Assembly: GCA_002205965.3 (NCBI GenBank)
Contig: NADL03000682.1
Location: forward strand, 186,001 to 250,000
Origin: Kappaphycus alvarezii
Taxonomy: Eukaryota > Rhodophyta > Florideophyceae > Gigartinales > Solieriaceae
Reading direction: 5' to 3'
DNA: 64,000 nucleotides
Made by a program: the position numbers and the translations under genes. Positions 385 to 61,098 of this stretch are shown here, one piece after another. The notes beneath the pieces were generated by a model. It did not search any database and was not told the DNA's origin. It saw only the letters and a program-made list of their open reading frames with translations. Position 1 is the first letter of the stretch. Every line of letters starts with the position of its first letter.

Positions 385-1830
385 TGCTGTTATGAATTCT
401 TTCCTTTCTGGTGGAGGGCGGTCCTCTCAACAAACTTCTGTCTTCTCCATCTTTAACCTCTGGGGTTTCAAAAACAACTCTTCCCACGAATCTATTCTAC
501 AAAAAAATCATGAAACTAATTTCTCTTTTGAATAAAAATTCACTTTACAACTCCACTTTCATTTTATCTCTGAGGATTTTGGTCCTCGTTTTTCAAAAAA
601 GAAATAAACCCACTCATGATATGCTTTGTCCTTCAAATTCAGTTCTGATGTTTTATCAAGTAGATTTTTAGATATTGCCTCGATTGCACACAAATTCAAA
701 ACTGCGGCATTGCCTGGCATTTTGATTTCGACCTAGGTCGTGAAATTTCTCGAAGACTTCGCCTTATTTAAAGCTCATAATCACCATCATTGAGGCAAAA
801 ACCCCGCCATAAGCTACCATTTCGGATCACCCCCTTTTTTGCTTTCAACTTGACCAAACTTCACTCGTCCCTCACTATTGCTATTTAATCCCGAGGCCGC
901 CACTCTCTCAATGCCCTGGCCTTGATGACAAATATACCAAGCGGATATGATGCTTATTGCAGAAAAAATGGATTGCGAACGCTTTTGGAAGTGAGTCTGC
1001 TGGCAATGCTTCGAGGAGGCAGAGGAGGCAAAGGAGGAGCTAGCGAAAGAGAACACAGAAGAAGAGGCAGAAGATGAGGAGCTTTAGGCTGAGGTGGAAT
1101 CATGGGAAGGTGAGAATTGCTGGGTGTATTCTTGGGAGCACCTAGTGTACAACGGTGGAGGAGTTGCTCTATAGAACAGAAGGGAGATTGAAGGAATAAT
1201 CGGTATTTATGATTCTTATGAAAGTTGTAAAATGTATAATGAAAGCTATGAGGAGTGATTGCAAGATCCGGATACGTCCAAGTGGGATATTTATAATTCC
1301 GGGACGTTCGACAGAATTTGTATGGAATGCTTGGGGGGTATTAATATGGAGGAATTGTTTAGCTGTGATCTCGAGGACTACGATTTTAAAGAAGAATATA
1401 GATATTTATTCAGATAGTACCCGATAGAAGCTTTTCTCGCTGACAAGATTACATTTGATTGATATTGCGGTATTTGGTGTACTTGTCTGAGACTTCAGGG
1501 TGAACCAAAAAATTATATATGAGCTTAGTAAATTGCTTTCCCTTGTGAAGGTAAAGCAAGTTAGTAGGTAGCTCTACGCAAGGTCCCGAGTGGTAGAAAG
1601 CTAAGAATTGTAGTTGTGGAAGCAAGAATTATGATTTTACGTTGGTCACAAGGCACCACTTGTAGTTCTTGCACCTTCTATACTTTTTTGTAGCCCTCTC
1701 ACGCGTCCTCTTTACCCACCCCTTTTTGTTCGCTCAACCACACTGCGTTAGAACTTTTCTCATTTGCGAAATATTCTTCGTGGGGTAATCGGTTCTGAGA
1801 ATATCTCGTCCAGACGATTTACCCCTTTCA
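385..1830 (+). mobile_element. Solo long LTR A of Ty3/gypsy family (ORF-bearing)
   Basis: The segment aligns by eye over its length with the long LTR D at 23305-24827. It starts near a TGTT with a GGTCCT-containing repeat, has a TATTTAAA box near 765-772, an acidic ORF relic, a second TATA box (TATATAT, 1514-1520), and an R/U5-like part ending ACCCCTTTCA at 1830. No primer-binding site or gag follows, so it is a solo LTR. I could not find a convincing 5-bp target duplication, and the left end is approximate. Confidence 0.65.
838..1417 (+). pseudogene. LTR-borne acidic protein, relic copy A
   Basis: This is a decayed copy of the acidic protein encoded inside the long LTRs. In successive frames it shows a YDAYCR stretch, an E/A-rich run, a WEHLVY block matching WxAPELVY of copy C, and an intact end with ICMECL, EELF and DLEDYD before the stop at 1415-1417. 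That end aligns with ICGDCLD...EELF...DLENRK of copy C. Several stops and shifts interrupt it. The function is unknown and no database family is recognised. Confidence 0.6.
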
Positions 1831-2476: not shown

Positions 2477-4258
2477 AAAAGATAATCCCAACAGAAATGG
2501 AATCAAGCTTATTTATGGGCTAGGATAATGTTTTCTAAAAATGAGGTAATTCGAGAATATAACCATGCAGAAATGTTTGTCTTTTTCTAGTTCTTGAAAA
2601 TATGTGATATAATATCTTTCCGTAAAGTACATATAGTGAACTGGCTTTAGATAAAGTTATTTGTTCCAGTTTGGAACCGTAGTTGAACTGCAACCAATAT
2701 GTAGATATTTTTGTTCCGTGAAACACAAAAAAATAAGAAAATTTTTCTTGGTATTATTGGATTGCATTGAGTAGTTTTAATTCAAAGATGGAAATCCTAT
2801 AAAATACTCTGCCGATAACGAGATCTAAACAAAAATAATAGCATTTTTAAATTTCTTTCAATGGATCCATTTGGGTGGAAACTATAATTCTTAATTCCCA
2901 CAAAAAGAGGTAGATTTAATTATAGAAAAGTATTTATAGAGAAACATATATGTATATGAGAAGTGCTTTTTACTACTGCATGTTACTGGAACCAATTTCA
3001 AACTTAAAAGACGTGATTTTTCCAGAATACCTGTTACCACTTGTCCCCAGTAAAACATTTACACCCGAGTTTTCTCTACCCATCGCATGTTGTGCTGTGA
3101 AATCTTCTTATCTAAATCTTGAGAATGTTGCGCTACATGATTATATAGCTCAGTTGAAGTTTCGGGACGTGGTTTCCGTTTTAGATGAAATTTTGAAACA
3201 TTTTTCGCTTCAGATATCAAATTTCATTTTCATGACTGTCTTTATGCTCCTCTAGAATAACGTTTTTATTCCAGGACCTAATAGGTATATGATGGTTTGA
3301 TACACTGAAAACGAGGTTTGATATTCAATATGATTTTTTTTTGATTTAACAGGATGTCTTACAGAAATATGCGTTGCATTACAGCTACAAAGAATGAAAA
3401 AAAACTACTTACGATAAACAAAATTATGGAACCCTACTTTTTTAAATTCTGGAATATTTTAATTGTAGGCAAACGACGTTTTGTCGGTAATAGTGAGAGA
3501 GAAGGTCCGGGAAGAAATGAGATGAGGCAAAACACACGGAACGTAGTCTCAAATGAGGGAATTTACTCAGCGAAGGTGAAAAGAGTCGATCCGTTGCTTC
3601 CAAGCCAGTAATTTGCCAGGACTATCAGGCTCATAAGTAAACACATTTCGGCTAAATCCTTGCTAGCGGCTAATTAATTGAGAGAATATTTCTTTGTGGG
3701 AAAATCTTCAGAGAAGCCCACAAGAAGTGCTTATATACTGACGGAAATGCAGCCAAATGTTCGGATTCAGGAGCTTCCGTTCCGAACTAATCATATAGGA
3801 GGGAATGATAGAGAACTTCACTTCTTTATTTTGCTCTTCTAGTTTGGGACATCAAACCGGAGTTTGGCGAGAAGTAAAATAGATCAGAAAAGAAATTACT
3901 CATTTCAATGTATCAAGAAATGAGTAATAAAGACCCAAGAGGAATGAAAAGTGCAAACCACACGCGAACTTGAAAGAAGCGAAGATTTGGCTTTTTAATA
4001 TTCAAAATGTGTGGTTGGGCTATCTTCTGGTGTATGCTAAGCGACAAAACTTTAAAAATATCTCTATCCTAAAATATAATAGACCCAGTACAGGCCAGGA
4101 TGAGGGTTGTTGTGGACTAAAATTAATCCCTACCTCCCGGCGGCTATGTGCGACCCAATACGGTTTTCAGGGGATTCTGTCAGATGTGCGCGAATCTGCA
4201 CAGATTTTTTTTGTAGTTTTCATCGAACACGATTTTCTTTACTGCAGTATTTTTTATT
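2477..4258. other. AT-rich spacer with one unassigned ORF
   Basis: Mostly AT-rich. An ORF of 101 codons at 2950-3255 (plus) has a globular-looking hydrophobic pattern but no family I recognise and no repeat partner in the window, so it may be chance. Bases ~4000-4060 loosely resemble the L5-type LINE tail region near 38270. Confidence 0.35.
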
Positions 4259-5642
4259 GTTCAAAATTGCTTGTTTTTTGGTCCTACTTTACCGTCCCTT
4301 GCTCTAAGGACCTCTTGGGGGTGAGTATCTCTCCTTCTTTATCCTTGGTTATCATTAGCGCGGTCCTCTCCAAGGTCATTTTCATTTTATCTACATATGT
4401 AAATTCTTTATATACTCCCTCCGAATCAATTCCAAAATCAATTTTTTTTCCTCTTCTTCCTTACTTTCTTTTCCAAATACGGTTTTTCGTACATTCCCAC
4501 TGAAATTTATTTTATCTGTATCATATTTATATAATCCACCCAAAGTATCTCTTTTAAGCCCCTCTCTACTGAGTTCCAAACCCCTCCTCATCATTTCCAC
4601 TATCCCTTTATTTTCTACTCAATCGACACACTTTCAATCGCCTGCCTCTCCGTAAATTTCACCAAAATGAACAACCTATGTTTCTCCAGCATCGTTTCCA
4701 AGACTCGCGGCCCGAGCTCCTTAAACCTCATTCCTCTACTCCCTTTGAGCCTTACTGAACGCGATGAGTATCCCCCTGACAAACCAAGAAGAAGATGATC
4801 GTGTTTGCTCATCGCTTATTCATCTAGGAAGGTGAGTGGCAGAAGGAGGAGGTCGAGGATGGATTTTGCTAGACGTTTGAGAAGTGGGCGGCCCTTGAAT
4901 TGGTTCAAGGAAACGGGAGGAGGAAGGAGGACGGCGAAGAAAAAGAGAAGAACTAAGAAGAGAATGACGATAATGAGGGGTATGGAGACACGGAAAGTGT
5001 TAGAATGATGTGATGGGGGCTGAGCAGTATGGAACATGTATTCCCTATGATGGCATCGGATGGGCATATATTCAGTGGCTTAGAACTTCTCTTGGAAGTA
5101 AATAGATAATTATGAGCCATTAGCGGATATTTGTGGGGACTGCTTCGTTATAATTTATGTTTTGAAGCAATTTTTATAGGTCAGATGCAGGCGATGGTAA
5201 ATTAAAAGATTATAACCATTGTTCGTTTCTCAAATGTCTTTTGTCTATAGTGTAAAGTCCAGACAAAATGTCTCCAGTCATTTCCTGGATACTTTTGTAT
5301 TTTGTTAGGAAGTCTAAATAAGCTGGGTAAACTGCTTCCTTTGTTTTATTTCCGCTTGGAAAAGTCAAACAGGCTGACAGAGATCTTCAGATCAAGTCCT
5401 GAGTAGTTAAGAAGTTTACGATCAATTTCAGACCCTACAAATATTTTTCTTACGCTGGCCACAGAGCAACAGTGGTAAACCCTGCCCCTTCTGTACTTGC
5501 TTCTAGCCCTCTCAACAGTTGTCCTTACCCACTTCTTTCTGTTCGCCCAACTCTACCAAAGTAGCACTCTTTTTGCTTGCAAGACTTCTATGTCGGAGTA
5601 ATTTCTTCTGAGTATCTCTTTCTCCGACGCTTTATCCCTGTT
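4259..5642 (+). mobile_element. Solo long LTR B of Ty3/gypsy family
   Basis: Collinear with LTRs A, C and D: a GGTCCT-rich start, a TATTTATATAA box near 4525, an acidic ORF relic, then an R/U5-like segment (AGTAGCACTCTTTTTGC region) ending TTTATCCCTGTTA at ~5642. Internal sequence does not follow. The left end is approximate and the copy is strongly diverged. Confidence 0.55.
4667..5163 (+). pseudogene. LTR-borne acidic protein, relic copy B
   Basis: It starts at the ATG at 4667 with MNNL, as the other copies start with (S/T)NLRP. It then shows HRLFI, FEKWAALELV (matching FEEW*APELVY of copy C) and a charged run rich in Glu and Lys. The C-terminal part corresponding to FADICGDCL survives only as shifted DNA around 5128-5160. 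Frameshifts and stops make it non-functional. WAALELV is open here, which suggests that the stop at this position in copy C is secondary. Confidence 0.5.
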
Positions 5643-9238: not shown

Positions 9239-9821
9239 CCGAACCGCACTTTTTAAACATCAAAGAACCAAAGCGATTTTTAACACGACCTTCAAGTTCC
9301 GCTTTTCGCTCCGGACACACCGTGCCCGAGGAGAAGTTGCCCAGAAACACTTGATTGCTTCCGAGACCATCTCTTGCACTGTGATAGGGGTAAATCGGCG
9401 GGGGAGGAGATCCTCAGAACCAATTACCCTGAGAAGGAGGTGTTGCGAGCGACAAAAGTGCTGCCGTGGTATTGTTGAACGAACAAAAGGGAGTGTATAT
9501 AGAAGAGAGTTGAGGAAGCTACAAGCAAGAAGAAAGGGGCAGGGTCTACCACCGACGCTCTGCGACTAGCGTAAGAAAAAGTTTTCTTGGGTCTGAAGTT
9601 GACTCTCAACTTCCTACTACTCGGGACTTGGCTTGAAGTTGTCTGCCAACTTGCTTGACCTCTCCATGAGGAAGCAGTTTACTCAGCTTATATAGACTTT
9701 TGGCTACCCCTAAAGTCCGAACAAAACTACAGAAGATACCAAGAAATGCATAAAATACTTTGTGTGGACAATATACTCTAAGCAAAAGATACTTAAGAAA
9801 CTAACAATTAATTTGGTCCTA

Positions 9822-10415
9822 TTATTTCCGATTCTCTAAATCAGATCCAAACAACTCCTCTAAATTATCCATGCTGTCCAAGCAGTCCCCACAAATATCT
9901 GCGAATGGCTCACAGCTCTCTATTTCCCCCTGGGAGATATCTAGACTACTAAAGATATCTCCATCCGGTTCCATCGTGGGCACAACTTGATCCATACTCT
10001 CTATTTCAGGCCCCACCAGTCCAACACTTTCCATGCCCCCTGTTCCCTCATCCTCCTCCTCCTTTTCCTCCTCCCCATCCTCCTCCTCCTCTTCCTCCTC
10101 TCCATCCTCCTCCTCCTCCTCCTCCTCTTCTTCCTCCTCCTCATCTTCCTGAGCCTCGTACACTAGCTCAGGGGCTTACCATTCCTCGAAGGACTCCCCG
10201 CTCTCCTCCTCGACCTTCTCAGCCTCTCCCGGACTTACCTCCCTCGCTTCTTTTTCTATGAAGAGGCGGCGAACGAACTCGATAATTTGCTTCTTTGTTT
10301 GCCGCCGGATGTAGTCGTCGGCATCGGTTGGCCCGTAGGCGGCGAGACGAAGGCCATTGATGGAACGGGAAGGGCGGTTTTTGGAAATAGGGACAGAGGG
10401 GCGAAGGTTGCTCAT
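9822..10415 (-). CDS. LTR-encoded acidic protein, copy C (one internal stop or 90-nt intron)
   Basis: This is the best copy of a protein encoded within the long LTRs. From the ATG at 10415 it has a basic N-terminal block (NLRPSVPISK, then DYIRRQTKKQIIEFVRRLFI), an acidic stretch, a poly-Glu/Asp region of ~40 residues, and a conserved end with SLDIS, EPFADICGDCLD and LEELFGSDLE. An in-frame TAA follows GESFEEW (10176-10178), and the same frame then continues to 9822. Alternatively, a 90-nt intron, GTAAGT at 10238 to CTCAG at 10149, would remove the stop in frame. Copies A and B keep a W...LV block there, so exonic sequence plus a nonsense change is also possible. A TATA-like box lies ~110 bp upstream. 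No signal peptide or membrane segment is seen. Role unknown; an acidic regulator is only a guess. Confidence 0.6.
10149..10238 (-). other. Candidate 90-nt intron in acidic ORF C
   Basis: On the minus strand, AG|GTAAGT at 10238 matches the eukaryotic donor consensus, and CTCAG at 10149-10153 could be the acceptor. The length is a multiple of three, and removal deletes the only stop. Copy E keeps the donor, but its acceptor reads CTCGG. This is inference only. Confidence 0.35.
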
Positions 10416-10872
10416 TGTGATAGACGTTGGGGAACGGGAGGCAATGTAGGGTGTTTTGGGTGTGTGGGGGGAGAGGGGTGATGAGTAAAATGATCGCGGG
10501 CATTTGGAACTTAGAATAAAGAGGTTTAAATAGGCTCCCAGGGCAGGTTCTATAGATTAGGAATAGGTAAAATAAATCTGCAAGGGATTTTGCAGTAGTG
10601 CATTTGCGCCCTTCTTATCAAAAAAGGCGAATTTGGAGAGGAGGTAAGCTAAAAGGGAAAAGGGACTTGATTCGGGGTCGATTCAAAAGGTTAAATACAG
10701 TATAAAAATATCTAGATAAATGGAAGTAAATTTGGAAATGACAGTGGGAGAAGTTAGGGGCGGGATCGTTCTAGGTTGCTGGATTACACGAGGGGAGGAC
10801 TATTTCCTGTATTACGTGAAGGGAGGACCATTTCCTGTATTAAATGAGGGGAGGACCATTTTTTGTATTACA

Positions 10873-14097: not shown

Positions 14098-14155
14098 GAA
14101 TTAAAACAATAGAGAAAACCAAATGTACCGTAGGTACGTGATAACGAGAGTGAGG

Positions 14156-15085: not shown

Positions 15086-15186
15086 ACGAGCGATCGTGGT
15101 ACCCCCATTAGTCGCTCCAGCCCCGGCCACTGTAAGCACCGACTGTTGTAGCGTAACAGCAAGAGGTATAGTACGAGCTTCTTCTG

Positions 15187-17107: not shown

Positions 17108-17136
17108 AGGACAAAACGACGGCGGAGATGACCGCT

Positions 17137-23304: not shown

Positions 23305-24827
23305 TGTTGTTACAAAAACGGTCATTTCTGCAGAAAGGCGGTCCTAACCACAAACACGTATCTTCTCCTCCCCTGTGAGTCATCAAGAACAGCTCTTCGC
23401 ATCAATTTTCTCTTACGAACGAAATCATGGAACGAATTCTTCCCCATGAATTTAGATTCACTATGCAACTCCATTTCTATTTTTTCTTGAAGCATTTTGG
23501 TCATCCTTTTTTAAAAAAAGAAATCTTTCGACTTGTGATCCGCTTCATCCTCCAAATTCAGTGAAGACATTTCACCAAGCAGATTTTTACTTATTACCCT
23601 GATTTCATGCAAATTCAAAGCCGCGGCATAGCCTCAATTTTTTTAATCTTATCCGAAGACATGAGAAACTTTTATAGAAAGTTACCATAGTTAAAGTTCG
23701 AAACCGACGCCGTTGAAAACCCCTTGCCATCAACTATACCATCGGCTCACCCCTTTTTTGCCATCAACAATACCAACCTCCGCCCATTTGTCACCATCGC
23801 AAAGTCACCACGAGGCCGCTGCCCCATCGTCGCACTGGATCTGATTGCAAATAGACCACCCAAGTATGATGCTTACTGTAGGAGAATGGACCGCGAACTT
23901 GTTCAGAAGTGGGTCCGCCGGCACTGCTTTGAGGAGTCACAAGAAGCAGAGGAAGAAACAGAGGAAGTGGAGGCGGAAATAAGGATGAAGAAGAGGACTG
24001 ATTGGACCTGTAGGAGCCACTAAAGTACAGCAAGGGGCGAGCTATTGTTGAGAACGAAGTGAAGACTGAGAGTAAAAAGTGATCTCTGACTGCTCTGTCA
24101 AGGATGAAGTGGAGGAAGAACCGAAGAACAAGGAGAATAAAAGGAGGAGGAGGTATATGAGGGAGAGAGATTCATGGAAAGTGCTGGAATGGTGGGAAGG
24201 GGGCCAAACAGTATGAACCAGGTGGTCCGGATGCGGCCACTGGATGGGGCATGTTTAGTAGTTTAGATATCTCCCGGGAAAATAATAGAGAACTGTGAGC
24301 CGTTCGTGGATATTTGTGGGGACTGTTTGGGTGAAATGCATATTTTTGGGTAATTTTTGGCTCTGATGCCGAGGAGTAAGATATTACGGAAGCAATATCG
24401 ATATTTATCCTGAGAGTACCTGCTGTTATTTTTTCTCGTTCACAAGATTCTATTTGATGCATTTGCCGGTTCAAAGTTCGTTTGCTTGAGACAGAATAGT
24501 TAGCCAAAAAATATTTACACGCTGAGTAAACTGCTTCCTCTTGTGGAGGTCAAGCAACTTGGCAGACAACTGCAAGTCAAGTCCCGAGTTGTAAAAAATT
24601 GAGAGTGAACTTCAGACCAAAGAACCATTTTTCTTACGCTGGTCACAAAACATCAGTAGTAGACCCCGCCACTCCGATACATGGTTGCAGCACTCTCAAA
24701 CTTTGTCATTTTCCAAACCTTTTTGTTCGTAGAACTATACCACGGTAGCACTTTCGTCGCTTGGAACACCTCCTTCTTGAGGTATTTGGTTCTGATTATC
24801 TCTTCTCCCGACAATTTATCCATACCA
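23305..24827 (+). mobile_element. Long 5' LTR D of decayed Ty3/gypsy element
   Basis: It begins near TGTTGTTACAAAAACGG, carries the acidic ORF, has a degenerate TATA region in the GCTGAGTAAACTGC context, and ends TTTATCCATACCA at 24827. It is immediately followed by a primer-binding-like TTTGGTGCTC and by gag, so the acidic ORF lies upstream of the R/U5 that borders a real internal region. The copy aligns with solo LTR A over ~1.45 kb. Confidence 0.7.
23724..24350 (+). pseudogene. LTR-borne acidic protein, copy D
   Basis: The open part, 23724-24023, reads TNLRPFVTIAKSPRG, then YDAYCRRMDRELVQKWVRR and an E-rich run. After frame changes, MESAGMVG and FSSLDISRE (24176-24290) and CEPFVDICGDCL (~24300-24350) match copy C in order. 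So N- and C-terminal blocks are conserved although the frame is broken. The variable middle differs in length from C. Confidence 0.65.
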
Positions 24828-24850
24828 TTTGGTGCTCACGTGGAGGTTGC
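24828..24850 (+). other. Primer-binding-site candidate of element D
   Basis: TTTGGTGCTCACGTGGAGG directly follows the LTR. The complete element has TTTGGTACTCTTGTGGAGG at the matching place (60407 downward, minus strand). The TGG two bases inside the LTR end is where a tRNA 3' CCA would pair. The tRNA is not identified. Confidence 0.55.
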
Positions 24851-24914
24851 TGCACCAGAGGTATCCGAAATGTGAAGTGTTAGGGAACACTTAAGTTTTA
24901 TTTTTTCTGTAACC

Positions 24915-25850
24915 ATGGATCTCAACGCTGTTCATATAACGTTCACAGGGGGCACGAGTGAAGACGTTGAGGAGTTTTTGTATAAATAGGTTAATGTTTA
25001 AATGCGTGAGAAGGGCAATGAAGCGAATGCCGCGAGTATCTTCGTCTATCTTTATGGTGACGAAAAACACAAATGTAAGGCCAACTTTATCGACAGGTGG
25101 TCCCTTAATGGGAGTAGGCGTAGCTTCGGTGAGTTATTGTGAGTGGCTTGTCAAATAATATGCCAATGAGGTAAAGCCAGATGAGATAATTTGTACCGCT
25201 ATAGAGGCCTGGCTCAAACTCACCGACTTGCTGAGCTTATTTTTATACTTATGTGATCTCAATGAAAAAGCTGGATTCAACGCCCAAGTCAACTACGAAA
25301 TGTTTCGTAAGGCGGCGATAAGGGATAAGCAGTCCCCGCATTTCCTCCTCATCAAGGTCCTTCACACTTTGAATGAACTGAAGGCTGCCATAGTAGAATT
25401 TGTCAAAAACGCGGAGACATTTCAATCACTGAGTGAGGTACGTAGAGAAATCCGTACATAGATATCTATCTTAATTTCTGAAAAGAATAATTAAAGGCAG
25501 GATACTATTGCAGCGGAATCAGAATCTGCCAAAGGCGATGTCCAAAGCTTGATAAACCGGCAGAAAACCGATTAGATAATCAATTTGGCATGAGCACCTA
25601 CCGTTTGGGGAGCATTACTCTTACCATTAATGATAACAAGTCTGGGACCCCTAACGCCGCAAAAGTCTGCTTCTTCTTCCACAAGCCTGGACACTTTGCA
25701 AATGGATGTCCTGAAACTCCACATAGAAACACTGGCTGTGAAAAGTTCGGTCGAGACGGGCATCGTGAAAATAACTGCTGTACTATAGACTACAGAGGAG
25801 CAATTTTATCGGACGCGAGTGAAGAATCAGAACCAGAGGTGAAAATGTTT
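24915..25850 (+). pseudogene. Ty3/gypsy Gag relic (element D)
   Basis: It starts MDLNAVHITFTGG at the ATG at 24915, matching the Gag of the complete element, with an early stop after EEFLYK. LTDLLSLFLYLCDLNEKAGF, EFVKNAETFQSLSEV and the knuckle region follow. Both knuckles are damaged: CFFFHKPGHFANGC and CEKFGRDGHRENNC each have the second Cys replaced by Phe. Nucleocapsid domain of a dead element. Confidence 0.8.
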
Positions 25851-26694
25851 CAAAACAGGAAGGATAGAAGGTTGACGGATGCCGGTAAAGTATCCATCGC
25901 TGAAGAAATTAGTCAAGTCAATGTGACAGAAAGGGACGGAGAAGGGAAAATTTTATCAAAGAAACCTCGGCTAGATTATGGAATGCTAGAGCATATCCCA
26001 GCACCTGTACCTCTCTGGTCCAAGAGGTCTGATCAAGCTGTTCTAGGAGTATTAATCATCGGCCGAGAAAATAAAAAAGAATAAGAAATTCAAGAGTACC
26101 ACGAAGGATGAAATATAGTATGTGAAGAAGAACAATTTGGTAGTTGAGCTTGTATAGGCCTCAACCGGAAAAGCATTAGGTCAAGTTGAAGAAAAGACAT
26201 AAAAGAAGCGAAAAAGAACTCAAAAAAATATAAGGTCTACTTTGTATGCTAAGGGTAAGAAATCGTTTTTTCAATCGGCCAAGACAGCACCAAGACGTCT
26301 TGAGCTGTTACTAGTCAAGGTGTTAAGGATGAAAATCCAGGCAGTTTTCAATTCGGTTGCAGTTATAACTCTCATTTCAGAAAGTTTGTTGATGTATCTA
26401 GGTCTCGAAATAATTCCAATTACTCGAAGAATAACTTTTATGGATATAACCGTACCAAAAACCATGGGCACTGTTGAAAAGGTCTCCAAGTTCTCTAAAG
26501 ACTCCAAAATTGATGTCTACTTTCTTGTCGTGCCTGATCTGCCTTTTGATGCAATCATTGGTTCCCATACCATAGAAAGGATAGGTAAATGTATTGTCTT
26601 GTGCAATCGAAGTGTGTCATTTAGTATTGACCGTAGAACGGTGAAGATGTCACTAGACTTCGAAAAAGGCACATATCCGGAAGATTTAAGATAA
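25840..26694 (+). pseudogene. Ty3/gypsy protease-region relic (element D)
   Basis: It matches the protease-containing ORF of the complete element (KDRRLTDAGKVSIAEEIS, HIPAPVP, then VKVLRMKIQAVFNS in place of VKVLGMKTQALFDSG). The DSG active-site triad has become NSV, so it is inactive. VPDLPFDAIIGSHTIERIG near 26540 is well kept. Confidence 0.75.
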
Positions 26695-27099
26695 ACAGTT
26701 AGTGAATATTTCACTCCTAGCTATGAAAGCGAAAATTACGAACCAAATAAAACTTTCGGAAATGGAAAAGCGTATGCTGGAGGAATATTGAATATGGCAT
26801 CGGATGATTGTGAGTCTTGGTTTGAAGCCAATGAAGACTAGAATTCTAGCAAAAGTGGGATCCGAATGTGTTTCCTTTTGCGATAATCTCGAATCGAACG
26901 AATTTACTCGGAATATGAAAAACGGAAATCCTTCCAAAAAGAATACGAATATGTAAAATTCCATATCTGAAGATATGAGTACATCGAAAGAGGTTCTTTG
27001 AAACAATAAGGGTAAGGATCACGAATAGTAAGAGGGAAAGATCCCACAAAGTCAAGAAAAAGTGCAGCACCTTCCCGCTCTCGTATCGAAGAAAATATC

Positions 27100-28150
27100 T
27101 GATATATTAACATCTCCCGAAGTATTTGCATGGTGCGTTTCAGATCTAAGACAAAAGAGTGTATCGGTCCCTCATGCATTTGAACTTGCCGACACTCACC
27201 CAGTTTTAAATAGATCTTCACGCAAGACGCAAAAAAATTAACAATTTATCTAATAAAATGGTGCAAGTATGTACATCACTTGATCTTTACACTGGCTACT
27301 GGTAGACTCAGTTGGATGAAAAATGTAAGGAAGAAAAGAACTTTACCAGCAAACCTCTGTACCTTCAGATTCGACGTGACACCTTTTGGTTTCATAAATG
27401 CACCAGCTAGATTCCAAAGAATGATGAAAGGGGATTTGACGGGACTTCTATTTGCAAGAGTTTATAGCGATGGTGTAGTTATATTCTCAAAAAACTTGAA
27501 TCACCGCATATCGCATGTGAAGACTGTGGTGGATAGGATATTGGCAAACAGCCTGAAAACTAAGTTGAGCAAATGCTTCTTCGCAAAAAAACACGTATCC
27601 AATTACTCGGTCATATCGTCGATCAAGTGGGAATTAAAGTTAATCCAAAAGAATCGAAAAAAGTCAGGTTGGTTCTCTGGACCGCTCCATAGACGGAAGT
27701 TCGAAGCTTCTTGAGACTGTCCCCATATGAATATATTTATCAGATATTTCACCGAGACGGCATAGCCATTACATGCCAGCACTACGAAGAGCGGAACGTT
27801 TTTCTGGAGCAAGGAAATACAAACAGAATTTGAGGAGCTTAAAGATAATCTACATGGCTAGCTTTTCTCTTCGCAATGAGAAATTTTCGCGAGTACCTTT
27901 TATCACTGGAGAGATTGTCTTAAAAGCTCATCACCAGAACTTAGAAAGATGTTCATCCCCGCTTGGCTCAATTGCTCGACATTTTTGCAAAATATCGATC
28001 TGAAATTTTCTATAGACGCGGACGCAGTAATTATTCTGCTGATTACCTATCAGTTTTGAGGGATCCAATGAATCCAAGTGAAAAACTTCCAAGGACATCG
28101 TCGTATGTTACAGGGTGCAAGTCACAAATGGTAACGAATACTAACCTAGT
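27100..28150 (+). pseudogene. Ty3/gypsy RT/RNase H relic (element D)
   Basis: A section from upstream of RT to motif A is missing (jump near 27235-27265). LDLYTGYW follows, then TPFGFINAPARFQRMM, and YSDGVVIFS replaces YIDDVVIFS, removing a catalytic Asp. RNase H and the downstream RYRSEIFYRRGRSNYSADYL block (near 27980-28050) survive in pieces. Confidence 0.75.
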
Positions 28151-28239
28151 CTGCAGGGTCTAATGAAACTCCTTAAAGGACTATAAATGAGAAAAGTTGA
28201 TTTTGAATACGGAAATTGAGTACACAAGAATCAAAAAAG

Positions 28240-28755
28240 CTTTCAGGAAGTGGGATGGAAACTATTTCGACACTCTAAAGCTGGTCTCCATCTCGTTGTC
28301 CCTTTGAAAGATATAATGAGGACTTTATGGACCTTTCATGACGAGTTAGCGCATTGGGATCTCGAAATAACAAAAACATTTATTGCAGAGAGATTCCAAT
28401 GGACGAGTTGCCGTAAAGAAGTCTACAGTTTCGTAAAGCTGCAATAACTGTAAAACATTTTACTCCGATCTGAAAGTACAAGAGAACTCTAAGTTTCTAG
28501 TTTTCCATCTTTTTGAAGCCTTCTCAATCGACTCGGCCTTCCAATTCAAGAAACAAGTATCTCTTTATTCGTACGAGTGCAACATCTTAATGGATGGCCA
28601 ATAGCGGTTGCAGCTGAGGAGATCAATGCAGAGTTGACCTTGGGGCTCATCGCAAAAGAAATAATTGAGCCAATTGGTCTTCCTAAAAGTATGATATTGG
28701 ATAACGGCCTTTGCTTTACTGTAATTTTAATGCTTCGCTTTTTCCAGATATGATC
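28240..28755 (+). pseudogene. Ty3/gypsy integrase relic (element D)
   Basis: It reads WKLFRHSKAGLHLVVPLK, FHDELAHWDLEITK (the His pair of the HHCC finger), then SIDSAFQF-like and EIIEPIGLPKSMILDNGLCF around the second catalytic Asp. Homology ends at ~28755 inside the catalytic core. The C-terminal tandem domain and a 3' LTR are absent, so the 3' half of the element is lost. Confidence 0.75.
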
Positions 28756-53599: not shown

Positions 53600-53604
53600 C
53601 ATAC

Positions 53605-54325
53605 TGATAGGGGTAAATCGGCGGGGGAGGAGATCCTCAGAACCAATTACCCTGAGAAGGAGGTGTTGCGAGCGACAAAAGTGCTGCCGTGGTATTGTTG
53701 AACGAACAAAAGGGAGTGTATATAGAAGAGAGTTGAGGAAGCTACAAGCAAGTATAAAAGGGGCAGGGTCTACCACCGACGCTCTGCGACTAGCGTAAGA
53801 AAAAGTTTTCTTGGGTCTGAAGTTGACTCTCAACTTCCTACTACTCGGGACTTGGCTTGAAGTTGTCTGCCAACTTGCTTCACCTCCACTAAAGGAAGCA
53901 GTTTACTCGGCTTATATAGACTTTTGGCTACCCCAAAAGTCTCAAACAAACATACTAATAACCATAAAATGTATTCACGGTAATCGTGTGAACCAGAGAG
54001 ACTATTAGAAGATATTTCCTCAAGGTAAATATCTAGGTGCCATACCCATGCCAGCCACCCATCGGCCAGGGGTGGGAATTGATGTGGCCATTATATAGAC
54101 CTTTCAGAGCTACTTGTCGTATCACCCACAACCTGGAACTGTACTGACATCTACTATGACAGCGTGTCCTAAAATGAAAAAAATCAGCCGACGAATTTGC
54201 CACACTCACCCAAATTAAAAATATCTTGCAAATTCAAAAACTGTAAAAATATCTTCCCAATTCCGATACTGTATACAATCATGGTCCTCATCTAGATTTT
54301 TTCGTGCGCGAATTTGCGCACATCA
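53605..54325 (-). repeat. 3' LTR (short type, two TATA boxes)
   Basis: 721 bp. On the minus strand, TATATAATGG (~54091) and TATATAAGCC (~53912) lie ~180 bp apart. The second is followed by the R/U5 shared with the long LTRs. No ORF lies between the boxes, unlike LTRs A-E. Confidence 0.9.
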
Positions 54326-54358
54326 CGCCCTCTCGCTCAAGACGAACGTCCCGACTCG

Positions 54359-56119
54359 TCACTGCTCTTCTTCTGCTTCCGTTAGTGTTCGCTGTCTTAT
54401 TGATAAAATGTATGGTCTCTCAAACGGGTACGGATGCAACTGATTACCAATATGATGCTCTAAAAAGTAGGTTCGCATTACTGGTACCTCACTTTGTAGC
54501 ATAGCCTCATATATTGGTTTGATCACATCGAGGTGGGGTTGAATACATTCTTCTTCCGTGACTCTTCCGAATCTTCCAAGAGTGAAAAAATATATGTGAT
54601 ATGCAAACTCTTCTGGAAGATGCCGGAGGAATGGATGTCGATAAGAAAAGAAGACGCGCATCATCAAGAACGAATCTTCGTAAGATAAGTGCGGTCCATG
54701 TAGCGCCCTAAAACATAAACAGATGCTTATCATGAAATAAGAAATGACCTGCGCATCGTTCGCATCCTCGGAGATATTGCGCAGCCAAAAAGATAATCTT
54801 CTTCTTCCGACTGTATGCTGTGCATGGTTGTGAAGGAGAGCTAGAGATGAAGTTGTGGTGGACGGTCCCGATGAATGGCCGCGACCAGCTCCTGACGTAC
54901 TGGGACCTGCACGAGGTCCTCTCGGGGGACGACCGGAACCTCTTCTGGGCGGGTTGTTGTCTCCTGAAGGTCCTCCTCTGGTCATCATCACTGCTTCAGG
55001 AGGATCCTCGCCGCCTCCAACGTTCCCAATTTGTGGCGGAGAAACGTAAGGTTCCCATAGAGGATACGGGACCAGCCTGTATTCCATATCCGGGGGTAAG
55101 GCGTAACCTCTCAGTCGCACGTCTTGGTTGTTCTTGAGAAATACGTAAATTGGACGGATAATATTCAGATACGTTTGCGACAAGTCTCCAGCAGCTACCA
55201 TTCCATATCTTCCTATAGAGTAATGATATATTACCTCCACAAACTCTGGACCTGCTTCCGTGAACCTTCCGTTTTGGAATGAAAATAGAACTCTTATTAA
55301 TAGTCGGAAATCTTCTTCAGGTAGCAATGGTCCGTTCAACGTACGAAAACATAGGCATATATTAATGTAGAAATGGATGATTACGTGGAGTTCGTAGTAG
55401 TCCCGCGTAACCGAGATGATCCATTCCCAGGCCCTTTTTCCTCCCATAGGAATCATTCTATAGTTAAAGATGAGTATGCCCCGTGGTTGCGCATAGTCCT
55501 GTGTGAGAAGGAATTCTTCAGGCCTCTGATGGTAAGGGACCAGACGACGTGCATGGATGGCCCTCCTTGATCTCTTCCCTGAGCTTGAACAGAGCTGATA
55601 GTGCGGGTGTCTTTCCTCCGTGACGATGCAAGGGTTCGAGTACTTGGTTTGGAAGGCCGGCCACTTCACAGCCTGCTGCATTGCTTTTCCATGTACTACA
55701 AGTACTTTAGAGCCAACTGAAAAGGTTCTGACTGCAGGTTCTGCATCCTTATTTCTTGTCTGTGTTAGCGCGCGGTGTGATCTCCAGCCTTCGGTGGCCA
55801 GTAGTTCAACTTCCCTACTCTCTTCATCGATAATATTTGTTTCCATGTCTCTCTGTAACATTCTAGGAGCCCTTCCGTACATTAGCTCGAATGGTGAGCG
55901 TCCATTTCTTCCTCTTCTTCGACGGTAGCCGTATAACACTTTTGGTAAGGCATCTTCCCACTGGATTTCATTCTCCAACATAGTTTTCGATATTGCTCGT
56001 TTGATGGTTCCAACCATCCTCTCCGCTTTCCCGTTGGACATAGGAGCGTATGCGAGAACGGTCTTCAGCTGAATCCTTTCTCTTCCAAAAAACGAAGCAG
56101 TGAAGTTGCAGTAAAACAA
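54359..56119 (-). CDS. Integrase C-terminal part fused to two tandem unrecognised domains
   Basis: After ~19 out-of-frame residues, APMSNGKAERMVGTIKRAI carries the catalytic Glu (residue 33). WEDALPKVLYGYRRRRGRNG, SPFELMYGRAPRML and a GSKVLVVHGKA segment complete the integrase by residue ~200. Residues ~226-361 and ~440-575 are two copies of one domain: shared W, ICLCFR, a GP.L..ED stretch, RV.FS, EF...IY, GR(Y/F)G, PIY, and PYP...PY. A Pro/Gly/Arg/Ser-rich linker (362-439) separates them. There is no signal peptide or clear membrane segment, so it is not an envelope protein. The stop is 33 bp before the 3' LTR. Confidence 0.8.
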   Translation of the reverse strand: MFYCNFTASFFGRERIQLKTVLAYAPMSNGKAERMVGTIKRAISKTMLENEIQWEDALPKVLYGYRRRRGRNGRSPFELMYGRAPRMLQRDMETNIIDEESREVELLATEGWRSHRALTQTRNKDAEPAVRTFSVGSKVLVVHGKAMQQAVKWPAFQTKYSNPCIVTEERHPHYQLCSSSGKRSRRAIHARRLVPYHQRPEEFLLTQDYAQPRGILIFNYRMIPMGGKRAWEWIISVTRDYYELHVIIHFYINICLCFRTLNGPLLPEEDFRLLIRVLFSFQNGRFTEAGPEFVEVIYHYSIGRYGMVAAGDLSQTYLNIIRPIYVFLKNNQDVRLRGYALPPDMEYRLVPYPLWEPYVSPPQIGNVGGGEDPPEAVMMTRGGPSGDNNPPRRGSGRPPRGPRAGPSTSGAGRGHSSGPSTTTSSLALLHNHAQHTVGRRRLSFWLRNISEDANDAQVISYFMISICLCFRALHGPHLSYEDSFLMMRVFFSYRHPFLRHLPEEFAYHIYFFTLGRFGRVTEEECIQPHLDVIKPIYEAMLQSEVPVMRTYFLEHHIGNQLHPYPFERPYILSIRQRTLTEAEEEQ

Positions 56120-56487
56120 AGGGCGTTATCCGAGATGATCCTTTTTGGAAGACCAAACGGTTCAATTATTTCTTTTTCGATGAATCTCAGTACCACCTCA
56201 GCATTTGCCTCCTCGACTGCAACTGCTATTGGCCATCCAGTAAGATGTTCCACCCCTATAAGGAGATATTTGTTTCCGGAAGAAGTTTCCTTGAACGGGC
56301 CCGCGAAGTCAATTGAGAAGGTTTCAAAGAGACCGGAAACTGGAAAACTTAGAGTTGTCTTATACTTCCGTATTGGAGTGAATTTTTGGCAGTTGTCGCA
56401 GCTTTTCACGAAGTTATAGACGTCCTTATGGATACCGGGCCACCAGAATCTCTCAGTTACGAATTTTTGGTTGTTTCGAGATCCCAA
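56065..56487 (-). CDS. Ty3/gypsy integrase, zinc finger and catalytic core (part)
   Basis: The His pair (FHDELGHWDLETTK) lies just upstream in another frame, separated by a shift in the T run at 56464-56468. In this frame KSCDNCQKF supplies the Cys pair, FSIDFAGPFKETSSGNKYLL the first catalytic Asp, and PKRIISDNALCFTATS the second. The frame ends near 56068, where a one-base shift leads to the ORF below containing the catalytic Glu. It inserts the cDNA with 5-bp staggering, in agreement with the CATAC duplication. Confidence 0.88.
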   Translation of the reverse strand: MGSRNNQKFVTERFWWPGIHKDVYNFVKSCDNCQKFTPIRKYKTTLSFPVSGLFETFSIDFAGPFKETSSGNKYLLIGVEHLTGWPIAVAVEEANAEVVLRFIEKEIIEPFGLPKRIISDNALCFTATSLLRFLEEKGFS

Positions 56488-56545
56488 TGCCCTAGCTCAT
56501 CATGGAAAGTCCTCAAGATCTTCATTCTTTCTTTCAAAGGGGCCA

Positions 56546-58444
56546 CTAGTCGGGGACCGGCTTTAGTGTGCCGGAAAGTTTCCCATTCCACAATGTAAAA
56601 GCCTTTTGATTCCTGCGTACCCAATTTCGGTGTTCAAGATCAACCTTTCTCATTTCTAGTCCATCGAGGAATTTGATCAGTCCGTGAATATTAGCTTCGT
56701 ACTCGTTATCGTTCGGCAACTGCAACTCGGCGACTCCGACGATGTCCTCCGAAGCTTTTTCATTTGGAATCAGTGCGTCCCTCAAGCGGGATAGGTAATC
56801 GGCAGGCTGATTATTGCGTCCGGGTCTATACACAATTTCAAACCGATATTCTGCGAAAATGTCGAGCCATCGGGCCAAGCGGTGATGTACATCCTTCTTT
56901 TGGAATGCTGTTTTAAGTGCCTGGTGATCAGTTATCAAGACAAATTTCTCGAGTGATAAAAGGTATACGCGAAACTTTTTCAGCGCGAAGACGACAGCTA
57001 GCGCTTCTTTCTCGCAGACTGAGTATCTCTTTTCCGCGTCATTCAGAGTTCGGCTTGCGAATTGAACAGGGTGTAGTCTTCCGTTTTCATCTTTTTGGGA
57101 CAAAACGGCACCCAAAGACCGTTCTGAGGCATCTGTCTCCACAACGAATGGTCTCTTGAAATCTGGGTACATGAGAACTGGGGGGACACATAGCTTATCT
57201 TTAAGCTCCTGAAATGCAGTTTCCATTTCCTTGTTCCAGTAAAATTTTCCGTTCTTCGTAGTGCTGGCATGTAACGGTGCTGCAGTCTTGGCGAAATCTT
57301 TGATAAATCTTCTGTAATATGAGGCCAGTCCTAAGAAGCTTCGGACCTCCGTCTTTGAAGCGGGCCTTGGTGCCAACTTTATTTTTTTCGTTTTCTCTGG
57401 ATCCACTCTAATTCCCTCTTGGTCGACGATATGACCGAGTAATTGGATAGAAGTTTTCGCAAAGAAGCATTTGCTCAACTTAATTTTCAAGCTATACTCC
57501 GATATCCTCTCCACAACTGTCTTGACGTGCGAGATGTGCTGATCCAATGTTTCTGAGAATATGACGACATCATCGATATAGACTCTTGCGAATGGAAGTC
57601 CTTTCAAAACCTCGTTCATCATTCTTTGGAATGTAGCTGGTGCATTCATGAGACCAAAAGGCATCACTTCGAACCTGAACGTACCGGCTTTGCTGGTAAA
57701 GGTTGTTTTTTCCTTACATTTTTCATCCAATGGAATCTGCCAATAGCCAGTGTAAAGGTCAATTGAGGTGAAATATCTCCCGTCCTTCAGGTCCTCGAGG
57801 ATCTCCTCCATGTTCGGAATCGGAAATCGATCGGGTATCATTCTCTGGTTCAGTTGTCGGTAATCGACGCAAAAACGCAGCTTTCCATCCTTCTTTGGTG
57901 CGACCACAACTGGAAACGACCATGGGGATGAAACTGGTCGAATAATATCATTTTTCAGCATACTTGTAACATTTTCTGAGATAAATTGGTCATATTTTGG
58001 CGGTTGACGTCTAGGCTTGTGGTAAATCGGTTGAGTGTCGGTAAGTTCGAACGAGTGAGTAACCGGTACACTTGCTTGTCTTAAATCTGAAACGCTCCAT
58101 GCAATTACTTCGGAAGATGTTAACATGTCGGATATTTTCAGTGAGGCGGGGGCGGGAAGGTGCTGCACTTTTCCTTGGATTTCTGCCATTTGGCGCCCTT
58201 TTTCTTCTTGATCCTCAACCTCAATATTTTGAAGGACCTCTTCCGTCGTGCTCACATCTTCATATATGGAATTCGACGTATTCTTATTTTCTTTGCAAAG
58301 GTAATCTTCTTTCATGCTCCGAATTCTGTCCTTTGATTCGATATCATCGCAAAAAGAAACACATTCGGGTTTCAAACTTATCCTAGAATCCCAGTCGTCA
58401 TCTGTTTCAAACCCGGAATCATAATCGTCCCATGCCATGTTCAT
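56546..58444 (-). CDS. Ty3/gypsy reverse transcriptase-RNase H
   Basis: 632 uninterrupted codons. RT: YRQLNQRMIPDRFPIPNMEE, TSIDLYTGYWQI (Asp229), PFGLMNAPATFQRMM, RVYIDDVVIFSE (Asp291, Asp292), LLGHIVDQEGI. RNase H: VVETDASERSLGAVLS (Asp438), CEKEALAVVFALKKF (Glu480), LITDHQAL (Asp506), QPADYLSRL (Asp549). All catalytic residues are present. The N-terminal ~130 residues are acidic and variable. It ends at a premature stop after LKPVPD because of a shift near 56575; the true frame continues into the integrase His-Cys finger. Confidence 0.92.
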   Translation of the reverse strand: MNMAWDDYDSGFETDDDWDSRISLKPECVSFCDDIESKDRIRSMKEDYLCKENKNTSNSIYEDVSTTEEVLQNIEVEDQEEKGRQMAEIQGKVQHLPAPASLKISDMLTSSEVIAWSVSDLRQASVPVTHSFELTDTQPIYHKPRRQPPKYDQFISENVTSMLKNDIIRPVSSPWSFPVVVAPKKDGKLRFCVDYRQLNQRMIPDRFPIPNMEEILEDLKDGRYFTSIDLYTGYWQIPLDEKCKEKTTFTSKAGTFRFEVMPFGLMNAPATFQRMMNEVLKGLPFARVYIDDVVIFSETLDQHISHVKTVVERISEYSLKIKLSKCFFAKTSIQLLGHIVDQEGIRVDPEKTKKIKLAPRPASKTEVRSFLGLASYYRRFIKDFAKTAAPLHASTTKNGKFYWNKEMETAFQELKDKLCVPPVLMYPDFKRPFVVETDASERSLGAVLSQKDENGRLHPVQFASRTLNDAEKRYSVCEKEALAVVFALKKFRVYLLSLEKFVLITDHQALKTAFQKKDVHHRLARWLDIFAEYRFEIVYRPGRNNQPADYLSRLRDALIPNEKASEDIVGVAELQLPNDNEYEANIHGLIKFLDGLEMRKVDLEHRNWVRRNQKAFTLWNGKLSGTLKPVPD

Positions 58445-59397
58445 TACCCCCGAGGGTACCCTTTTCCACTTCCGAAAGTGTTAGTTGGTTCCGAATCTTC
58501 GCTGTCATAGCTAGAAGTGAAATCTTCACTGTCCGTTTCTTTTAAATCTTCAGGATGCGTGCTTTTGTCGAAATCCAGGGGCATCTTCACGGTTCTGCCG
58601 TCAATATTAACTGAAACCATTTGGTTGCCCAAGTCAATGCATGTCCCTAGTCTTTCCATGGTGGGGCAGCCAATGATTGCATCGAAAGGGAGATCCGGCA
58701 TGACAAGAAAGTCTACATCAACTTTAGAGTCCCCAAAGAACACGGAAACCTTGTCAACAGTGCCCATGCATTTTGAGACGGTTCCATCCGCTACAGTTAT
58801 TTTTCGAGTCGTTGGAGTAATTTCGAGACCTAGATCTGTCACCAAAGTTTCTGAAATGAGGTTTGGAACAGCACCCGAATCGAAGAGAGCTTGGGTTTTC
58901 ATACCCAATACTTTGACTGGTACCAGCTTAAGACGTCTTGGTGCTGTCGAGGCCGATTGAAGAAACAGTTTCTTACCCTTAGCGGACTTATTAGACCTGA
59001 TAATTTTTTTGAGTTCTTTTCTCGCATCCTCTGCGTCGCCCCTCAAAAGTTGACCAAACGTTATCCCAGTTGGGGCCGATGCAAGCTCAGCCACCAAATT
59101 GTACCTCTTCACATACTCTAGTACGTCCTTAGAGATACTCTTAACTTTCTTACTCTTTTTCGTCTTCTTGGCCGGAGTGACTCCCACTCCTGGAACAACT
59201 TGATCAGACCTCTTGGTTCGAGGAGGTACAGGTGCTGGGATATGCTCCAGCATTCCATACTCTAGCCTAGGTTTCTTCGATAAAATGTTCCCTTCCCCAT
59301 CCCTTTTTGTCACATTGACTTGACTAATCTCTTCAGCGATGGATACGTTACCGGCATCCGTCAACCTTTGATCCCTTCTATTTTGTAAGATTTTCAC
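58444..59397 (-). CDS. Ty3/gypsy protease region
   Basis: In frame with the knuckles upstream; the listed start is a GTG, so it is not an independent gene. A long basic linker (KKTKKSKKVK) is followed by an aspartic protease-like domain: QALFDSGAVPNLIS (Asp173-Ser-Gly), then PDLPFDAIIGCPTMERLG, the second conserved stretch of retropepsins. It ends in a TAA overlapping the next ATG (TAATG, 58444). Element D has one more base at this place, so a −1 deletion in the C run (58448-58452) may have created the split. Confidence 0.85.
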   Translation of the reverse strand: MKILQNRRDQRLTDAGNVSIAEEISQVNVTKRDGEGNILSKKPRLEYGMLEHIPAPVPPRTKRSDQVVPGVGVTPAKKTKKSKKVKSISKDVLEYVKRYNLVAELASAPTGITFGQLLRGDAEDARKELKKIIRSNKSAKGKKLFLQSASTAPRRLKLVPVKVLGMKTQALFDSGAVPNLISETLVTDLGLEITPTTRKITVADGTVSKCMGTVDKVSVFFGDSKVDVDFLVMPDLPFDAIIGCPTMERLGTCIDLGNQMVSVNIDGRTVKMPLDFDKSTHPEDLKETDSEDFTSSYDSEDSEPTNTFGSGKGYPRG

Positions 59398-60320
59398 CTC
59401 TGGTCCTGACTCACTCCTTGCTTCCGATAAATTTGCTCTTCTGTTGTCTTTAGACCAGCAGTTACTTTCATGATGCCCATATCGACCGCACTTTGCACAA
59501 CGAGTGTTTCTATGTGGATTATCAGGACACCTGTTTGCAAAGTGTCCAGGCTTGTGACAGTAAGAACAGACTTCTGCGGCTTAGGGGCCCCAGACTGGTT
59601 CTTCTTAATGGTAAGAGTAAGGCTTTCCAACTGCGAGGTTATCATGTCAAGTCGATTATCGAATCGGGTTTCCAACCTTTCTTCCAAGTTTTTGACATCG
59701 CTCCTGACAGATTCTAATGCCGCTGCACTAGTAGCCGGCCTTTGATAATTCTTTTCAGGATGTACGATAGACATCGATGTGCGGGTTTCCCTCGGTACCT
59801 CACTCAGTGACTGAAACGTCTCCGAATTTTTGACAAATTCTACTATGGTACCCTTCAGTTCATCAAAAGTGTGAGGGCCCTTGATGAGGAGGAAATCGGA
59901 GAGCCGCTTATCCCCCATAGCCGCCTTACGCAGCATTCCGTACTTGGCTTGGGCGTTGAACCCAGCCTTTTCATAAAGATCACACAAGTACACCAATGAG
60001 CTTAACAAATCGTCGAAGTTGAGCCGGGCCTCTATGGCGGTACGAATCATCTCATCTGGTTCTACCTCCTTAGCATACTCTTTCACAAGCCACTCACATA
60101 CCTCACCGAAGTTACGCCCATTCCCGTTAAGAGACCACCCGTCGATAAACTTGGACTTATATTTGTGCTTTGCGTCACCATGAAGATAGGCGAAGATACT
60201 TGCGGCCTTCTCTTCATCGCCCTTCTCTCGCATCACAACGTTGACATATGTGTAAAGAAACTCCTCAACGTCTTCAGTCTTGCCCCCTGTGAACGTTATA
60301 CGAGCAGCGTTGAGATCCAT
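59394..60320 (-). CDS. Ty3/gypsy Gag (capsid and nucleocapsid, one frameshift)
   Basis: It starts at the ATG at 60320 (MDLNAARITFTGG), the start shared with element D; the frame is open upstream to the LTR, but copy D has a stop there. The capsid-like part includes EEFLYTYVNVVMREKGDEEK, FGEVCEWLVKEY and LLSSLVYLCDLYEKAGFNAQ. Near 59571-59576 one A appears missing. After it, the other frame gives two CCHC knuckles, CSYCHKPGHFANRC and CAKCGRYGHHESNC, and runs in frame into the protease ORF (from 59397). Structural protein that packages the genomic RNA. Confidence 0.85.
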   Translation of the reverse strand: MDLNAARITFTGGKTEDVEEFLYTYVNVVMREKGDEEKAASIFAYLHGDAKHKYKSKFIDGWSLNGNGRNFGEVCEWLVKEYAKEVEPDEMIRTAIEARLNFDDLLSSLVYLCDLYEKAGFNAQAKYGMLRKAAMGDKRLSDFLLIKGPHTFDELKGTIVEFVKNSETFQSLSEVPRETRTSMSIVHPEKNYQRPATSAAALESVRSDVKNLEERLETRFDNRLDMITSQLESLTLTIKKNQSGAPKPQKSVLTVTSLDTLQTGVLIIHIETLVVQSAVDMGIMKVTAGLKTTEEQIYRKQGVSQDQR

Positions 60321-60384
60321 GATTACAGAAAAGAAATCCCCCGAAGTGTCCTTACTACTGCTCAACTCGAATACCTCGGGTGCA

Positions 60385-60407
60385 ACCCCCTCCACAAGAG
60401 TACCAAA
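60385..60407 (-). other. Primer-binding-site candidate
   Basis: On the minus strand the LTR end is followed by TTTGGTACTCTTGTGGAGG, matching TTTGGTGCTCACGTGGAGG of element D. The tRNA is unidentified. Confidence 0.55.
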
Positions 60408-61093
60408 TGATAGGGGTAAATCGGCGGGGGAGAGATCCTCAGAACCAATTACCCTGAGAAGGAGGTGTTGCGAGCGACAAAAGCTGCGTGGTATTGTTGA
60501 ACGAACAAAAGGGAGTGTATATAGAAGAGAGTTGAGAAGCTACAAGCAAGTATAAAAGGGGCAGGTCTACCACCTCGCGCAGCTAGAAAAAGTTTTCTTG
60601 GGTCTGAAGTTGACTCTCAACTTCCTACTACTCGGACTTGGCTTGAAGTTGTCTGCCAACTTGCTTCACCTCCACTAAAGGAAGCAGTTTACTCGGCTTA
60701 TATAGACTTTTGGCTACCTCAAAAGTACTAACCATACTGTATTCACGGTAATCGTGTGAACCAGAGAGACTATTAGAAGATATTTCCTCAAGGTAAATAT
60801 CTAGGTGCCATACCCATGCCAGCCATCCATCGGCCAGGGGTGGGAATTGATGTGGCCATTATATAGACCTTTCAGAGCTACTTGTAGTATCACCCACAAC
60901 CTGGAACTGTACTGACATCTACTATGACAGCGTGTCCTAAAATGAAAAAATCAACCGACGAATTTGCCACACTCACCCAAATTAAAAATATCTTGCAAAT
61001 TCAAAAACTGTAAAAATATCTTCCCAATTCCGATACTGTATACAATCATGGTCCTCATCTAGATTTTTTCGTTGCGCGAATTTGCGCACATCA
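60408..61093 (-). repeat. 5' LTR (short type)
   Basis: 686 bp. It matches the 3' LTR almost perfectly from 60780 to 61093, but shows many one- to several-base deletions in 60408-60770 relative to it. TATA boxes are at ~60698 and ~60859. Confidence 0.9.
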
Positions 61094-61098
61094 CATAC

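Follow-up and report, generated by a model that had tools for sequence, protein, structure and literature searches.

A Ty3/gypsy retrotransposon family of Kappaphycus alvarezii with an acidic protein gene inside its LTRs

Long LTR copies and neighbouring features

The window, a stretch of 64,000 nucleotides from the red alga Kappaphycus alvarezii (contig NADL03000682.1, positions 186,001 to 250,000 of the forward strand), contains five copies of a long LTR, labelled A to E (Table 1). The initial annotation gave these copies one common plan, and this is confirmed, as all five lie where it placed them and align along that plan. The alignments show 68% identity for A-D, 71% over 737 nt for C-D, 68% over 706 nt for B-C and 86% over 772 nt for C-E. 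The termini are TG...CA in C and D, and copy C, read on the minus strand, begins with TGTAATAC at 10872 and finishes with CCTATCA at 9382. Copy E is broken off by the window end within the Glu-rich part of its open reading frame (ORF), with its R/U5 falling outside the window.

Table 1. Coordinates of the LTR copies, their parts and the associated gypsy bodies in the window
Feature	Position	Strand	Remarks
Long LTR copy A	385..1830	plus	ORF decayed
Long LTR copy B	4258..5642	plus	ORF decayed
Long LTR copy C	9382..10872	minus	1491 bp; ends TGTAATAC...CCCCTATCA; target duplication not found
Putative promoter box TATA2, CTATATAAG	9687..9695	minus	In the part common with short LTRs; in 37/40 copies
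Acidic ORF of copy C	9822..10415	minus	197 codons and stop; one in-frame TAA at codon 80
Putative promoter box TATA1, TATTTAAA	10525..10532	minus	117 nt before ATG; in 38/40 copies
U3 5' array of ~30-bp repeats containing GTCCTCC	10785..10872	minus	2-4 units in 38/40 family copies
Long LTR copy D	23305..24827	plus	5' LTR of an older family; ORF decayed
ORF N-terminal block in D	23769..24008	plus	
PBS-like site and gag-pol remnant of the D element	24828..28743	plus	Match to the other gypsy body stops there
Gypsy element with short LTRs, without acidic ORF	53605..61093	minus	LTRs 53605-54325 and 60408-61093
Long LTR copy E	63292..64000	plus	Ended by window edge

The long U3 has a fixed order of repeat array, TATA-like box, ORF and second TATA-like box, which is followed by R/U5. 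Among the 40 family copies retrieved from the genome (see below), the distance from the first box to the ATG has a median of 117 nt and a range of 115-285 (38 copies), and the second box lies 311-316 bp upstream of the LTR end (37 copies). Promoter activity of the U3 is predicted from these two boxes. A candidate target motif common to the long and short U3, TGGTCCTC, was dropped, as its alignment score was reached in 393 of 2000 shuffles; it has 8 matches in the window against 2.0 expected, seven of the eight being in LTRs.

Copy D was said to be followed by a PBS-like site and gag, and this holds, with TTTGGTGCTC as the PBS-like site and gag-pol directly downstream of the LTR. Up to the integrase region, this gag-pol is 74-81% identical to the window's other gypsy element. 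No 3' LTR of the D element was found in the window, and the window holds no complete element with two long LTRs. The ORF is interrupted by several shifts or stops in A, B, D and E. In copy C, the in-frame TAA (GGTAAG) was considered as a splice site and this was rejected, since other copies have a sense codon there, in frame.

The D family is old, since most of its scored copies (40 of 5379 candidates) are only 73-81% identical to D, with one at 91% and one at 100% (rounded). Its N block is found in all 150 places scored out of 3876 candidates, at 54-72% identity apart from D itself and the near-identical copy. This second copy of LTR D lies at G000:C653:1010402-1011924. An identity of 100% (rounded) in so old a family suggests that the region underwent segmental duplication.

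Two further features lie between copies C and D. On the minus strand, 13657-18345 is an element that combines an RT frame (PF00078) with a second frame, recombinase-like and by eye of DIRS type; its two repeats of 284 bp (at 13826 and 18050) are 99% identical. At 22063-22659 on the plus strand, a frame of 198 amino acids contains zinc knuckles and CxxCxGxG-like motifs, and may be a host gene.

The acidic ORF lies within the LTR

The genome searched is the 336-Mb assembly of 884 contigs that contains the window. With LTR C as the query, it gives 45 matches, of which 40 near-full-length copies were kept and five short pieces left out; 40 is a lower bound on the family, being the number scored among 3607 candidates. 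Eighteen of these long LTRs are 5' LTRs followed by a PBS and 13 are 3' LTRs preceded by a PPT. One (L026) has both a PPT and a PBS and stands between two elements, four are solo and four are unclassed, the window's copy C among them. The solo copies are flanked by 5-bp target duplications (ACCTT, AACTG, CATAC and GTACT). A genome-wide count of the exact PPT/long-U3 junction gives 226, against 0 for a reversed control pattern.

It was proposed in the initial annotation that a search with LTR C would find full-length elements with two long LTRs. Such an element is present on contig C831, where L027 and L025 are the two LTRs; each contains a whole ORF, and GATAT flanks the pair on either side. 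In a pairwise alignment, the two differ by 1 substitution in 1521 aligned sites and by four gaps, and in the multiple alignment by 5 differences of 1521. The acidic ORF is thus wholly in the LTR, and in both LTRs of one element.

On the alternative view, the LTR is short, the long LTR has been misread, and the ORF is an internal gene, the third of the element. This view could draw on the window, where any complete long-LTR element is missing. It is refuted by the genome: the 18 long LTRs that precede a PBS and the 13 that follow a PPT have gag or pol beyond, and the 5-bp duplications of the four solo copies bound the long unit. It is given virtually no weight. The ORF lies within the LTR itself because 5' LTRs, 3' LTRs and solo copies all contain it; the opposite case, an ORF present only once and internal to shorter LTRs, was not encountered. 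The claim that these are Ty3/gypsy LTRs with a gene of their own is therefore supported.

The PPT/U3 junctions are in places evenly spaced at ~7.5-7.6 kb, as on G000:C335 (11674, 19221, 26802 and 34388) and C329 (21244, 28796 and 36305). Together with L026, this spacing probably reflects head-to-tail arrays of elements that share LTRs.

The ORF is whole in 22 of the 40 copies, which were picked by DNA, and broken in 18. A whole ORF is one that keeps its frame from MSNLRP, MNNLRP or MNKLRP to the C block; one of the 22 (L004) reads past the usual stop. About 10 of the 18 broken copies have a frame shift within the GAN-rich middle or at its end, and the rest are broken in the N or C block. A protein search of the genome, confined to the best 150 of 10781 candidates and so biased towards whole copies, gives 134 near-full-length rows, 105 of them without an internal stop by hand count. 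Twenty ORF stretches were fetched from rows without stops, and in eight of these (L072, L073, L074, L075, L077, L087, L088 and L090) the frame leaves and then returns. Such compensated frameshifts in the GAN repeat turn acidic runs into basic ones and leave the C block in frame. Some of the single-base breaks could be assembly errors.

The encoded protein is acidic and has approximately 200 residues, with conserved N and C blocks around a Glu-rich middle. The N block contains a basic helix-like stretch, RRQTKKQIIEFVRRLF. The C block, with the pattern PFADICxDCLxxMDIxxELFGSDxE, keeps MDQVVPT, PDGD, DISQ, PFADIC, DCL and ELFGSD between families. The middle of the D-type protein contains VIVISDSSDEEEE, with VIVISDSSDEEEERR in L091 and VNVISDSSDEDEERR in L092, a motif that resembles SUMO-interacting motifs. 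By eye, this motif is missing in the C-type copies.

No relative of the protein was found at E 0.1 or better among 5.8 billion proteins, either with a masked C-type query (0 of 86 candidates) or with a D-type query (0 of 7652), in a set whose coverage of eukaryotes may be thin. Viral collections were scanned by pattern and by RT, and neither scan gave a relative. There is no convincing match in Pfam, PHROG or PDB, the weak or below-cut-off matches being mostly over the Glu-rich part, and no DNA-binding domain was recognised. AlphaFold models of two ORF rows have a mean pLDDT of 45.5, which is too low for a reading of the fold.

Selection on the protein and exchange of the U3

The initial annotation read the conserved ends as a sign of past selection. 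This is borne out by an excess of third-position mismatches in both blocks and by the comparison between families. In the pairs A-D and B-C, drawn from the old lineages of the window, the odds ratio of such mismatches is 1.89 in the N block (z 3.14), 2.0 in the middle (z 2.19) and 1.90 in the C block (z 2.79), whereas the flanks of the ORF give z 0.85 on the 5' side and 0.35 on the 3' side. In the single pair C-D, the excess is present in the N block (z 2.69) and absent in the C block (z 0.55).

Between families, two D-type ORFs with long open frames (L091 and L092) were compared with three hand-chosen C-type ORFs. In the N block, pS is 0.80-0.88 and pN 0.33-0.35; against the window's own D the values are 0.74-0.75 and 0.40-0.42. 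The C block gives a dN/dS of 0.21-0.25 against one D-type sequence, as L092 is cut there and D is broken. L091 and L092 differ from each other in the N block with a dN/dS of 0.75. Synonymous sites are thus near saturation between C-type and D-type while the protein ends are kept, and there has been past selection on these ends. The middle was described as fast-changing, and its diversity among the 40 LTRs is indeed 0.11 as against 0.015 in the ends.

Among recent copies, the signal is different. For the C-type family itself, 45 distinct ORFs give an N-block dN/dS of 0.82 (subgroup pairs: 0.28, 0.86 and 0.88). The C-block value is 1.18, from 42 of the same ORFs, as three with another block length were dropped. 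For variants in the 40 LTRs, pN/pS is 0.65 (N block) and 1.80 (C block). A dN/dS near 1 across all copies had been named as an observation that would refute the initial reading; it is seen within the young C-type family and not between the C-type and D-type families. A low dN/dS is not visible between recent copies, with the C block furthest from it, and recent selection is either weak or unseen. This is read here as strong long-term constraint, with the signal among copies blurred by the neutral decay that would follow each insertion. Constraint may also have been lost recently.

The window also contains a gypsy element with short LTRs, bounded by a 5-bp duplication, GTATG, at 53600-53604 and 61094-61098. 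The bodies of the long-LTR elements are 94.6-99.7% identical to that of this element over the first and last 1.5 kb at most, a comparison that covers the two ends of the body. It includes 19 of 19 flanks after the PBS and 14 of 14 before the PPT, with L026 in both sets and represented by only 445 nt on its 3' side. Long and short LTRs have their final ~370 bp in common at 95% identity, a part that begins ~55 nt ahead of the second TATA box, and no match was found between the two U3 further upstream of this common part.

The U3 is therefore an exchangeable module, with two U3 types on one body, because the short-LTR element has the same body with another, gene-less U3. Loss of the acidic gene by U3 exchange would be the simpler direction, since the long form is the one seen in all three old copies, A, B and D. 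The short-U3 element shares the body yet is without the gene, which is therefore not strictly required in cis. A third U3 type is seen at 33766-34409, where 22-bp tandem repeats (33766-33940) stand ahead of the same R/U5 (34134-34409, 91% identical to the short LTR).

The Ty3/gypsy pol matches Pfam families PF00078 (2.5e-35), PF17917 (7.6e-39) and PF13650 (2.1e-11), with a weak integrase match below the cut-off (PF13683, E 0.0051) downstream of the RT. The aspartyl protease, RT and RNase H are of Ty3/gypsy kind, and the order of protease, RT, RNase H and integrase is that of Ty3/gypsy elements. Paired TG...CA LTRs, PBS, PPT and 5-bp target duplications, within the accepted 4-6 bp, place the family among LTR retrotransposons. 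RT relatives were found in 4263 of 7974 scored candidates, with up to 58% identity among the 120 matches listed, and some of the named ones are called Ty3-G or 17.6. Three plasmid records have distant RT matches of at most 42% identity. At 54359-55400 on the minus strand, the pol frame continues past the integrase into two domains that by eye look related to each other (..HFYINICLCFRTLNGP.. and ..YFMISICLCFRALHGP..), for which there is no Pfam match up to E 5 and no PDB match up to E 1.

Models of function and related systems

A regulatory role for the protein is a guess, and it is also the leading model. The U3 of each long LTR holds a gene for an acidic protein of ~200 residues, kept by past purifying selection, or its decayed remains. 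It is tentatively proposed, at somewhat short of an even chance, that a promoter of its own, ahead of the ORF in the U3, drives this gene, and that the product activates transcription of the element. Because reverse transcription copies U3 into both LTRs, every new element would receive two copies of the gene, and each solo LTR would retain one. Each LTR would be a small self-contained gene, with promoter 1, the ORF and polyadenylation in R, and the adjoining promoter 2 would make the genomic RNA. A role in binding, to DNA or to a partner and perhaps at the ~30-bp repeats, is proposed for the basic helix-like N block. The acidic middle and the C-terminal block would together form an acidic/hydrophobic activation domain, a reading drawn from composition and from a general likeness to known acidic/hydrophobic domains. 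Elements with the short U3 would do without the protein or use it in trans. An activator with feedback on its own LTR is suggested by the basic N block and the acidic/hydrophobic C end, together with the repeat array and the second TATA box.

A fuller form of this proposal, which is possible though doubtful, treats the LTR as a complete regulatory gene, with the repeat array as operator, a promoter, the activator ORF and a second promoter in the U3. Every LTR, including solo copies, would make the activator in trans, and the U3 would be swapped as a unit between elements with the same body.

The gene could instead resemble sag or nef in its expression. In any LTR element the 3' U3 is part of the genomic RNA, and the acidic ORF would be the last reading frame of that RNA; it would be translated only from there or from a spliced form, and the product would counter host silencing or act on RNA rather than on transcription from the LTR. 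SUMO has a role in transposon silencing, and the SUMO-interacting-like motif of the D-type proteins fits such a product. This reading is rather unlikely: the C-type copies are, by eye, without the motif, and a dedicated promoter is suggested by TATTTAAA, which 38 of 40 copies have at a median distance of 117 nt upstream of the ATG. Less probable again, and poorly favoured overall, is a passenger, that is, a captured host or viral sequence that was once useful and is now decaying without present function. Dispensability in the short-U3 element, the 18 broken copies, the within-family dN/dS near 1 and the pN/pS values of the two blocks would all agree with this. Many copies are nonetheless whole, constraint acted between families, and the blocks are less diverse (0.015) than the flanking LTR before (0.024) and after (0.028) the ORF in the 40 LTRs. 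Neutral changes after insertion also raise dN/dS in any family.

The model of a self-encoded activator can be set beside known systems with genes in or near the LTR. The sag gene of mouse mammary tumour virus (MMTV) is located in U3, and hence in both LTRs, and is like the acidic gene by position only. It is a betaretrovirus gene, whereas the acidic gene belongs to a Ty3/gypsy element. In one report, sag is described as an LTR-encoded protein and a type II transmembrane superantigen (PMC11998498). The acidic protein, in contrast, has no hydrophobic run by eye; no superantigen family or structure occurs among its listed Pfam and PDB matches, and no sequence relation to sag was found.

The tas gene of foamy viruses lies mostly upstream of the 3' LTR and not wholly in U3, whereas the acidic ORF is wholly within it. 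The likeness is one of model, as the proposed protein would also be a self-encoded activator feeding back on its own LTR. No sequence relation to Tas was found, and no such Pfam family is among the 25 of 37 weak matches listed. Two studies describe Tas (Bel1) as a self-encoded activator of the LTR and of a second promoter (PMC517496, PMC4929722). The acidic family is placed with neither sag nor Tas, and membership is not claimed.

In HIV and SIV, the coding region of nef overlaps the U3 of the 3' LTR, is only partly in U3 and is not whole in the 5' LTR. The overlap of coding region and U3 is alike, and the protein is unrelated. With ordinary Ty3/gypsy elements, the family has in common the order of gag, protease, RT-RNase H and integrase, the PBS and PPT, the TG...CA LTRs and the 5-bp duplications. 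It differs from them in that its LTRs reach ~1.5 kb and contain a conserved gene, and in the two exchangeable U3 types on one body. No report of such an LTR gene in a Ty3/gypsy element was found in the open-access literature searched.

Retroviruses such as MMTV are known to have genes within LTRs; the gene described here is in a plain Ty3/gypsy retrotransposon and encodes an orphan protein conserved between old families. The junction count gives at least 226 gene-bearing elements in the genome. Recombination between LTRs, the usual route by which a genome disposes of such elements, would leave this gene in place, and elements may cheat by the acquisition of a gene-less U3. For annotation, it follows that 1.5-kb "solo LTRs" in this genome can be genes.
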